From positions 1 through 6,829 of the forward strand of contig JAFGON010000063.1 in NCBI GenBank assembly GCA_016926475.1: a DNA stretch of 6,829 nucleotides, written 5' to 3'. Positions 286 through 5,236 of the stretch are shown here, piece by piece. The notes below the pieces were generated by a model. It searched no databases. It was not told the origin of the DNA and saw only the letters and a program-made list of their open reading frames with translations. Origin of the DNA: a candidate division WOR-3 bacterium. GTDB taxonomy: Bacteria; SDB-A. The position numbers and the translations under genes are program-made. Each line of letters starts with the position of its first letter. The first letter of the stretch is position 1.

Positions 286-1335
286 TCACTGAACTTTGAT
301 CAAAATTTTCGAATCGTTACGGTCGGGTGATGTCAGCTCGACCCTGTATATTCCAGCCGAAACTTCTCTTCCGGAATCGTCTTTTCCGTCCCACGCAAAG
401 GACGTGTTGGAATCCAGCTCTCTGTTCACAGCGATTGTCCTTACAGTTCTGCCGCTAACGTCGAATATTCTGAGGGAGACAGATGAAGCGGAGGATATTT
501 GGACCGGGATGAAAGCTGTTCCGACGAACGGGTTGGGGTAAAAATCACCTAAACCGAAAATATCAGACAGGACGGGAGAGGAAGGCGTCTCCTCGACTGC
601 GTTGAGTCCTGAAATGTCTATCTTGTTGCTCTGGTGGATGTATTTAGGGGATCCGTGAGTCTGAAGCCATACGGCAAAATAAATTGCGCCTTCTTCGTAG
701 TTCCACCATGTAGTGTCCAACGTGAAAGGAATTGATACTTCGAGGGTTTCAGGGTAAGTTCCGGAAAACGTGACAGTAGTTCCGTTGTAATTTGGGCACA
801 TCCTTCGCATGGGGTAATGAAAATCCGAGAAATATCCATGGGGGTAGGGCACTACTTTTGAAACTGCCGCGAAGTGCAACCTGAAAGGTCCGGTGCCGAT
901 GGAAGCTTCAAGGATAAGAGTGGCTCTTACATTACCGGAATGCGTCGAAGGGTCGAAATCACCGTCAAGAAAAATGTTCAGATAACAAGGTCTGGTCATC
1001 GCCGAAGTAAAAGCGCTTTGAAGATTCGGGTTGGCTGGGTAGAAATTTACATATCCATCCATAAAGGCGTCTGGGACTCCGCTCACACCGTAAAAAGCCT
1101 GCCTCCCCTCGTGGTCTGTGTTGTTGAATGGATCAGAAGACGAAACGTGGTATTTAAGGGCAGTGATACTATCGCCCTTGCCTTCAATGAATGAGTTCTG
1201 CTGACCAGCATACTGAGCGCAGTAGCCTCAATATGAATAACCGTGGATCTCCAGAAGAGGTCTTCTCACGGCAGAAAAGATAGGACTGGAAAAAAACAGG
1301 ACTCCCAGAGATAAAAATACAAAAATTTTCTTTAT
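286..1335 (-). CDS. Secreted Omp28-like thioredoxin-fold selenoprotein with FlgD-like C-terminal domain (in-frame UGA = Sec36)
   Basis: Read as one frame this gives 349 residues with a single in-frame TGA at 1228-1230 (codon 36). Residues 1-22 are a signal peptide (MKKIFVFLSLGVLFF then SSPIFSA). Next comes EIHGYSY-U-GYC, so the UGA replaces the first Cys of a thioredoxin-type CxxC with Cys39 as partner. The fold continues convincingly: ALKYHVSSSDPFNNTD (59-74), then FYGVSGVPDAFMDG (81-94) with the cis-proline at Pro88. This order (CxxC, YH..DPFN, GVP.AF.DG) is that of Omp28-related and similar extracytoplasmic Trx-like proteins. A middle beta-rich region follows, then a FlgD-like Ig domain from about residue 262 (YPNPF, RIFDVSGRTVRT, WDGKDDSGREVSAGIY) to the C-terminus, typical of surface or secretion-linked proteins. 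The start is an AUA at 1335-1333, 7 nt after AAGGAG; no AUG, GUG or UUG lies between it and the upstream stop (1369-1371). Starting at GTG 1086 would lose the signal peptide, active site and RBS. Role inferred: extracytoplasmic thiol/selenol redox protein. The alternative is a nonsense-mutated Cys gene. Confidence 0.8.
1194..1214 (-). promoter_or_regulatory. SECIS-like hairpin for UGA recoding
   Basis: In the mRNA sense the 21-nt element reads AGU, A, UGCU, GGUC, AGCA, GA, ACU: a 3-bp lower stem, a 1x2 internal loop, a 4-bp upper stem and a GGUC tetraloop. There are 21 nt between the UGA (1228-1230) and the loop (1203-1206). E. coli fdhF, from knowledge, has a UGC-A-GGUC-U-GCA tip one codon nearer its UGA, so loop sequence and position agree closely. 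It also meets the usual bacterial SECIS rules of a small apical loop with G in the first two positions, 16-37 nt after the UGA. The lower stem is weak and a competing CUGC/GCAG pairing exists. Confidence 0.6.
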
Positions 1336-1342
1336 CGGAGGT

Positions 1343-1348
1343 CTCCTT
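1343..1348 (-). promoter_or_regulatory. Shine-Dalgarno deciding the AUA start of the selenoprotein gene
   Basis: AAGGAG lies 7 nt upstream of the AUA at 1335-1333, and AAG AAA ATT (Lys-Lys-Ile) plus a hydrophobic stretch follow. The position is ideal for initiation at that codon, and no standard start codon is available in the frame between the upstream stop and the signal peptide. Confidence 0.65.
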
Positions 1349-2842: not shown

Positions 2843-3355
2843 TTATTCCAGATTTCTTCCTATTTGAAACTTGATACCTGTTGGGGTAGGAAGGTTTCTA
2901 ATCCTGTTTAAAAAAAAGGAAACCCATAATTCGATTGAAAACGAATATTTATCAAGATTGTACCCAATGCCGGGAGATAAATTGAAAAGGAAAAGAAATT
3001 TTCTTTTTTAAGAATCAGAGATCTGATTTCACAGAATCAGAGATCTGATTTCACAGAATCAGAGGCCTGATTTCAGAATCAGAGGGATAATTGCCGCAAA
3101 ACCGGCGCCTATTTGAGGCTTAAAATTCACCTCGCCGAAATTCTTTATCAGACCCGCGTCAAAAGCGAAGGGATTACCTTTTGCTGGTATCACATAAGCG
3201 TCTATTTGCGCGGAAATATCATCTTGCAGAAAACGAGTGTAACCCAAGCCGATCAGCAACTCACCGCTCAAGACAACTGAAATCTCTACCCGGTTTAAGT
3301 CTTGAGAAAAAATAGCCGAGCAGAAGAGAAAAGAAATAATCGAATACTTAAGCAT
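2843..3355 (-). pseudogene. Outer-membrane beta-barrel protein gene interrupted by palindromic repeats
   Basis: The 5' part (3355-3059) encodes 98 residues: a signal peptide (MLKYSIISFLFCSAIFSQ), then alternating strands (VEISVVLSGELLIGLGYTRF, ISAQIDAYVIPA, NFKPQIGAGFAAIIPL) typical of a small beta-barrel. It ends in the repeat-derived tail LILKSGL. In the same frame, after stops at 3059, 3029 and 3008, barrel-like coding resumes: FNLSPGIGYNLDKYSFSIE, LWVSFFLNRIR, then GIKFQIGRNLE and TAA at 2843-2845. The simplest reading is one gene of about 155-170 codons broken by the repeat array at 3011-3084. The ATG overlaps the last 8 bases of the upstream membrane-protein gene (ATGCTTAA), so translation is coupled. 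The 98-residue N-terminal product could still be made, but it lacks the closing strands and C-terminal aromatic residue of a finished barrel. The barrel family is not identified. Confidence 0.6.
3011..3084. repeat. Tandem 22-bp palindromic repeat array
   Basis: Two identical 22-bp units (3011-3032, 3033-3054) of AGAATCAGAGATCTGATTTC plus AC are followed by a variant 20-bp unit (3055-3074, centre AGGCCT instead of AGATCT) and a 10-bp partial unit (3075-3084). Each full unit holds an inverted repeat, AATCAG...CTGATT, able to form a 6-bp hairpin. The array carries TGA codons that close all three minus-strand frames and lies inside the beta-barrel gene. Confidence 0.9.
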
Positions 3356-4351: not shown

Positions 4352-5236
4352 ATGCCCAGAACAGTTAGACTAGAGCTGCCAAAATCTCTCTATCTTGTCG
4401 AGGCTAGGGGAAACAGAAATCTGCCGATTTTCTGCGAAGAGGAAGAAAAAAATAGATTTCTTACAAAACTTGCTGAATACAAGGAAAAATACGATTTTTC
4501 ACTCTACGCTTACTCTTTGAGGGATGAATCTTTTCAACTTTTGTTGGAGACCGGGCTTGTCCCACTGTCGAGAGTGATGCAAGGCGTTATGCAATCTTTC
4601 ACCCAGTGGGTAAACAAAAAACATAAGACTTCAGGGCATCTCTTCGGAAGCAGGTACAAGTCAATTTTATGCGATAAAAACTCTTTTTTTACCGACCTGA
4701 TAAGTTACGTCAATTCCTGCGGTGAAAACAACGGCAAAAAGCAGTTTTGTTTGAGCTCAAAAGGCGAATATTTGTCGGCTGAAAAGCGTTTACTCGTCGA
4801 TTTCGACAAAATCCTGAAATATTTGAATTGCGGTGAAGAGGAATTGGTTGCGCGAATAAACCGCGTGCCAACCGAAAGTTTTAGGGTTAAACTTGAAAAA
4901 AGCAGGCAAATTTTTGGAGGGGATGGTTTCTTTGAAAATGTCAAATACTCTTCGGGGAAAAAAAACGCAGTTGAAAGACAAAAAGACAAAACTCTTGAAG
5001 AAACCGCTCAGATGACAGAAAAGCTGACGGGAATAGACAAAGAAGCACTTTTAGGGTCCAGGCGAAGAAAGGATATAGTAAGGGCTAGGGCTCTTTTTGT
5101 CAAATTGTCTCTATTTTTCACCAAGAGCAAAAAAAAGGAAATCGCCTTTTATTTGGACCGAGTACCGAGAAACATACCTTATCTCGAACGCAAAATCAGC
5201 GAAACAAAATTCGAAGAATACCTCAGGCGCTTATGA
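4352..5236 (+). CDS. RAYT/IS200-like (TnpA_REP) protein lacking the HUH histidines, with DnaA-C-like C-terminal HTH
   Basis: The 294 residues follow the REP-associated tyrosine transposase layout. MPRTVRLELPKSLYLVEARG corresponds to the family's MPR.pRie.pg.fYHV..RG, followed by NRNLPIF (21-27), LLLET (63-67), and GHLFGSRYKSILCD (95-108), which matches the usual GHLFqgRYKailvd. The catalytic HUH motif, normally NHYHLLLET, here reads ESFQLLLET: both histidines are replaced (Ser60, Gln62). The N-terminal YHV histidine is also Leu (YLV, 14-16). The tyrosine normally in YIHLNP remains (Tyr119, in ISYVNSCG), but the HLNP that follows is gone. The C-terminal part (about 228-282, SRRRKDIVRARALFVKLS, KKKEIAFYLDR) resembles the DnaA-C/helix-turn-helix tail of long members. 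The frame is full length with no stops, which suggests retention as a DNA-binding protein rather than an active transposase. The RBS is weak. No IS ends were seen. Confidence 0.85.
   Translation: MPRTVRLELPKSLYLVEARGNRNLPIFCEEEEKNRFLTKLAEYKEKYDFSLYAYSLRDESFQLLLETGLVPLSRVMQGVMQSFTQWVNKKHKTSGHLFGSRYKSILCDKNSFFTDLISYVNSCGENNGKKQFCLSSKGEYLSAEKRLLVDFDKILKYLNCGEEELVARINRVPTESFRVKLEKSRQIFGGDGFFENVKYSSGKKNAVERQKDKTLEETAQMTEKLTGIDKEALLGSRRRKDIVRARALFVKLSLFFTKSKKKEIAFYLDRVPRNIPYLERKISETKFEEYLRRL

Follow-up and report, generated by a model that had tools for sequence, protein, structure and literature searches.

The window, a stretch of 6,829 nucleotides from a candidate division WOR-3 bacterium, carries on its minus strand a 349-residue frame whose sole internal TGA is codon 36, in the context LLEIHGYSY-U-GYC, at the position in which relatives carry the initial Cys of a CxxC motif (Table 1). 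An earlier note, made from the sequence alone, had described a single minus-strand frame with one in-frame UGA at the active-site Cys position, and this description is borne out, as are the two motifs that it cited in the frame, YHVSSSDPFNN and GVSGVPDAFMDG. The FlgD-like C-terminus that it named is also found, the tail of the protein matching the Pfam models FlgD_ig (6.3e-12) and Por_Secre_tail, with the latter match slightly below that model's cut-off. As the note had further predicted, a standard gene caller truncates the gene, returning a 266-residue ORF that starts at GTG 1086.

No ATG, GTG or TTG lies upstream of the active site in this frame. The start is most likely the ATA at 1333–1335, the only good candidate, which follows AAGGAG at a distance of 7 nt; at its position the orthologues have ATG or TTG, preceded at the same place by a similar Shine–Dalgarno-like site, and we infer initiation at AUA in the window gene, a non-canonical codon that counts against the selenoprotein reading. 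Elsewhere in the window, a 22-bp unit with a palindrome in it (AGAATCAGAGATCTGATTTCAC) is repeated in tandem approximately three times at positions 3010–3085, downstream of or overlapping a small predicted ORF, and positions 4352–5236 of the plus strand encode a Y1 transposase of the IS200-like/REP-associated type with a weak DnaA C-terminal-like match.

Table 1 Features of the 286–1335 gene and its surroundings, in window coordinates
Feature	Position	Strand	Basis or remark
Predicted selenoprotein gene, 349 residues, Sec at codon 36	286–1335	-	Putative start ATA 1333–1335; stop TGA 286–288
Shine–Dalgarno-like AAGGAG	1343–1348	-	7 nt before ATA; orthologues similar
Probable signal peptide, residues 1–22	1270–1335	-	By eye; hydrophobic leader in all relatives
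In-frame TGA, codon 36, probably read as selenocysteine, first position of UxxC	1228–1230	-	Frame and homologue alignment
Predicted resolving Cys39 (UGYC)	1219–1221	-	Invariant column
SECIS-like apical hairpin	1197–1212	-	Core UGCU-GGUC-AGCA at 1199–1210; loop 21 nt after UGA
Pro88, thioredoxin cis-proline position	1072–1074	-	By place in sequence (V-P-D); invariant
Mature thioredoxin-fold and Omp28-like beta domain, residues 22–246	598–1272	-	Model pLDDT 97.4; HBP35 Z 24.5
C-terminal FlgD_ig / T9SS type A-like sorting tail, residues 266–346	298–540	-	Profile matches
Probable terminator, perfect 11-bp inverted repeat with TGTG loop	254–279		Just after the stop; read from sequence; scan did not flag it

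Homologues with TGA or cysteine at the active site

A protein search of the phylum's four genomes found both TGA-carrying and stop-free copies. In two congeners, orthologues that are 70–76% identical to the window protein are flanked by pstS on one side and the same small ORF on the other, with intact frames and a TGA at the same codon; in one of these genomes (G001) the orthologue appears to form a tandem pair divided by contig ends. Paralogues across the four genomes carry either TGA or Cys at this place, with distant ones reading U-GGC, U-SGC or U-IDC and others CGFC, CSFC, CGPC or CINC. A protein scan of genome contigs returned FlgD-tail matches only, in unrelated bacteria.

A profile of the mature domain matched in 49 of 386 sampled genomes. 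Twenty-six of the homologues, from 17 genomes, bear a TGA, in every case on the first column of UxxC, and a further 33 have TGC or TGT on that same column, which is the outcome for codon 36 that the earlier note had put forward as support. The placement of all 26 TGAs on one column is more than chance. Among 58 sequences the only invariant columns are C/U15 and C18 of the active site and a proline, P67. A tree needs at least 14 changes between Sec and Cys, nine of which are forced by starred branches, and related versions with a predicted Sec or a Cys occur across many bacterial lineages. The phylum also holds a second, distant lineage of putative Omp28-type selenoproteins (L073 1815–2921 and L069 3107–4138; U-GSC, U-PSC), in which both copies have a CGUGA-loop hairpin and the L073 copy matches PF11551.

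Fold, probable export and known relatives

A structure model of the mature domain built with 58 sequences reached a pLDDT of 97.4 and a pTM of 0.93, and replaced a first, poor model built with 12 sequences (pLDDT 63). Among solved structures it is most similar to P. gingivalis HBP35 (PDB 5y1a; Z 24.5, 2.3 Å, 217 residues), followed by 2axo from Agrobacterium (Z 19.0) and 2r2c, an Omp28 domain (Z 9.5), and thioredoxins match the first 95 residues with a Z of about 8 over 80–86 residues. Foldseek matches to potassium channels were partial, with TM under 0.4, and were disregarded. The features of a thioredoxin-fold oxidoreductase are present, with UxxC and a proline at the cis-Pro position, assigned by its place in the sequence, set in a thioredoxin fold. 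The earlier note had called the protein Omp28-like, and this part of its claim stood by way of relatives and structure but not from the sequence itself: many homologues match PF11551 and the beta domain resembles 2r2c of the Omp28 family (PF11551, NF033782), whereas the window protein has no match to PF11551 (gathering score 34.9), its likeness being one of fold to 2r2c only.

HBP35 shares the thioredoxin domain, the Omp28-like domain and the C-terminal sorting domain, but it has CxxC instead of UxxC and is only 12% identical to the window protein. Its thioredoxin activity is abolished when both cysteines are mutated, it complements an E. coli dsbA mutant (PMC2907840), and it is exported via the Por/type IX system (PMC3120885). 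The window protein may, by analogy, be a thiol–disulfide enzyme exposed at the surface, in which selenium takes the attacking role. Its tail scores 32.1 bits against the T9SS type A sorting model TIGR04183 (cut-off 23), and a SprA homologue above cut-off is present in all four genomes of the phylum; from these two features, surface export by a type IX-like secretion system is most likely. A selenoprotein that instead stays periplasmic and works as a DsbA/DsbC-like folding enzyme, without export to the surface, would suit the complementation of dsbA by HBP35 and the narrow miss of the Por_Secre_tail cut-off, yet the tail passes TIGR04183, the genome encodes a SprA homologue, and HBP35, the nearest fold, is itself a cargo of the type IX system, and we consider a purely periplasmic enzyme rather unlikely. 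No gene neighbour points to a redox partner.

The DsbA-, DsbG- and thiol:disulfide interchange-like selenoproteins are extracytoplasmic. They share the thioredoxin-fold UxxC with the window protein (reviewed in PMC13188914) but belong to another family with another domain layout, and their models miss the window protein. Closer to it is the catalogued NCBIfam family NF045500, "Omp28-related selenoprotein", which is GOS_C of Zhang and Gladyshev 2008 (PMC2398784) and is listed in the same review as UxxC selenoprotein NF045500 (PMC13188914). The earlier note knew of no selenoprotein with an Omp28-plus-FlgD architecture; its claim of novelty holds in so far as the catalogued model misses the protein and the C-terminal module is another, and fails in so far as an Omp28-related selenoprotein family already exists. 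Searches of the literature that paired selenoproteins with Omp28 or with type IX secretion turned up nothing of relevance.

We also weighed whether the protein is a plain member of this known family and nothing beyond. NF045500 matches 50 of the 58 wider homologues weakly over the thioredoxin and Omp28 part (E up to 0.01), and through these shared relatives the window protein, like GOS_C a thioredoxin-fold UxxC protein, is homologous to it over that part. The window protein itself, however, goes unmatched by the model even when E is allowed up to 1; its 200-bit cut-off is passed by no match in the protein's own genome and is reached in none of the 386 sampled genomes, and its tail-region matches are dockerin/TSP3-type repeats, not a FlgD/T9SS-type tail. 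Simple membership is, in our judgement, decidedly unlikely. Because the NF045500 model misses the protein and its tail differs, we assign it, on sequence grounds, to a new subfamily of a kind of selenoprotein that is not wholly new.

Decoding of the in-frame TGA

The source genome (2.15 Mb, 106 contigs, estimated 100% complete) contains the tRNA-Sec, selA, selB and selD genes that the earlier note had proposed to look for. Contig C90 carries a tRNA-Sec with anticodon TCA (ARAGORN), after which selA (492 bits) and selB (311 bits) lie adjacent to each other on the same strand. There are two selD genes, one of which (L084 1447–2514) has a TGA within FSEKAG-U-AAKIGPC, the known SelD Sec site, and serves as a useful internal control; the other (G000:C66:4961–5887) lies inside a 744-residue open frame and is possibly a fusion. 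A tRNA-Sec was confirmed in G003 too (ARAGORN), and selA was found in G001 and G002, where the tRNA-Sec hits are at contig ends and without ARAGORN confirmation. In the wider sample, selA was found in 16 of 17 genomes with an active-site TGA versus 20 of 32 Cys-only genomes (p 0.02). The one exception, G289, has two active-site TGA copies (L132, L133) and no selA above cut-off, reflecting either an assembly gap or a loss of Sec decoding.

Downstream of the UGA, the alignment of the seven nearest TGA copies is free of gaps, and U-G-C-[U/A]-loop-[A/U]-G-C-A occupies a constant position in it. This apical hairpin is found in 7/7 close copies with one compensatory exchange (U-A/A-U), which is all of its covariation and was reached by 17 of 500 shuffles. 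Two close copies read UGCAGGUCUGCA, which is exactly the 12-base apical hairpin that occurs a single time in the E. coli K-12 fdhF locus, and TGCAGGTCTGCA is identical to the E. coli fdhF SECIS tip; by coordinates, the fdhF hairpin starts 15 nt after the fdhF UGA at codon 140. The rules for bacterial SECIS elements place a G in the first two loop positions, the loop 16–37 nt from the UGA and the energy at or below -7.5 kcal/mol (PMC13188914). The hairpin of the window copy conforms in its GGUC loop and 21-nt spacing but, at -4.1 kcal/mol, misses the energy cut-off; three of the seven nearest copies pass the full rules, with energies from -3.3 to -11.6. Rule-fitting hairpins at or below -7.5 kcal/mol occur in 18 of 26 TGA copies versus 5 of 33 Cys copies (Fisher p 3.6e-5), and codon-shuffled TGA tails averaged 7.25 such hairpins and never exceeded 12, against the 18 observed. 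Folding the region after the UGA by itself showed unexceptional stability (z -1.69 to +0.95), so the case for the hairpin is a comparative one.

Set against recoding, UGA is indeed a normal stop in the window, as the earlier note had stated, since four of the seven ORFs counted, the selenoprotein gene among them, end in TGA, the six other ORFs have no internal TGA and Trp is encoded by TGG. That and the 266-residue ORF returned by the automatic caller would agree with a true stop or nonsense mutation that leaves a shorter protein or a pseudogene. The shorter form, however, would lose the signal peptide and the active site, the TGA is conserved in orthologues and paralogues, and its flanks are under purifying selection; against the G001 orthologue dN after the UGA is 0.17 with dS saturated, and because dS is saturated in most pairs we claim no dN/dS ratio for the downstream part. 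The gene is otherwise undecayed, its two congeneric orthologues likewise keeping their frames, and a stop or nonsense mutation is very improbable. An assembly error, which the earlier note had listed as a way to be wrong, is excluded because the TGA is kept in independent genomes. Genome-wide reassignment of UGA to Trp, Gly or another residue, to which the evident read-through of the 286–1335 gene might also be ascribed, can be dismissed given that TGA serves as a stop and is internal to no other ORF of the window, that homologues have Cys at the codon 36 site, and that the UCA-anticodon tRNA found is tRNA-Sec. All three explanations were rejected.

A secreted protein gene with an in-frame TGA (LC-U-GG) is encoded on contig C90 of the source genome (L016 11605–12894, plus strand), divergent from and adjoining tRNA-Sec in the tRNA-Sec/selA/selB region. 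Nine homologues in four genomes (including L172–L179) all have the TGA on one column, mostly as LC-U-[GH], and a downstream hairpin of the CCCAC-AGUUC-GUGGG type is fully paired in six of the nine and partially in the rest, with covariation not above that of shuffles. A search for a Cys form of this family found none, and the protein has no family matches beyond its sorting tail. From these sequence features, LC-U is likely to be a second, undescribed selenoprotein family. In two congeners an LC-U copy lies approximately 0.7–0.9 kb downstream of the window-gene orthologue on the same strand (G001:C38, L076 and L178; G002:C30, L081 and L176), and a functional link is possible.

A candidate surface-exported selenoenzyme

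The recoding signals, the conservation of the active site, the fold, the sel machinery and the SprA homologue, each established computationally, make it highly probable that the 286–1335 gene encodes a secreted selenoprotein, probably a surface-exported UxxC thiol–disulfide oxidoreductase. The extracytoplasmic selenol redox enzyme envisaged in the earlier note is thereby supported, its fold and export readings both holding under computational comparison. In the mechanism we propose, the ribosome would insert selenocysteine at UGA codon 36 under the direction of SelB, tRNA-Sec and the hairpin around 21 nt downstream, and the mature protein would join an N-terminal thioredoxin fold, containing U-G-Y-C and the cis-Pro position, to an Omp28-like beta domain and to the tail, which most likely directs it to the cell surface through a type IX-like secretion system. 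Sec36 would then attack a substrate disulfide (or pass one on), and the selenenylsulfide would be resolved by Cys39. Of this scheme we infer the actual insertion of Sec, the surface location, the redox direction, the substrate and the redox partner.

For the family as a whole, the balance of the evidence leans towards HBP35-like selenoproteins that are exported to the surface, are present in multiple copies in one small uncultured phylum and form a separate subfamily within a wide Omp28-related superfamily that has seen many Sec/Cys exchanges across bacterial lineages and is mostly missed by present models, with the same genomes carrying the secreted LC-U selenoprotein family, partly linked to it. 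As none of the 386 genomes passes the curated cut-off and 17 carry active-site TGA copies, the known Omp28-related family emerges as the small portion of a larger group that has so far been named. Automatic annotation cuts short or misses selenoproteins, and the 286–1335 gene would be affected. The natural Sec/Cys pairs, some of them in one genome, offer a test set for what selenium adds to an extracellular redox enzyme. In the present case, from an uncultured phylum, the selenium would sit in a thioredoxin-like protein that a type IX-like system probably presents on the cell surface.
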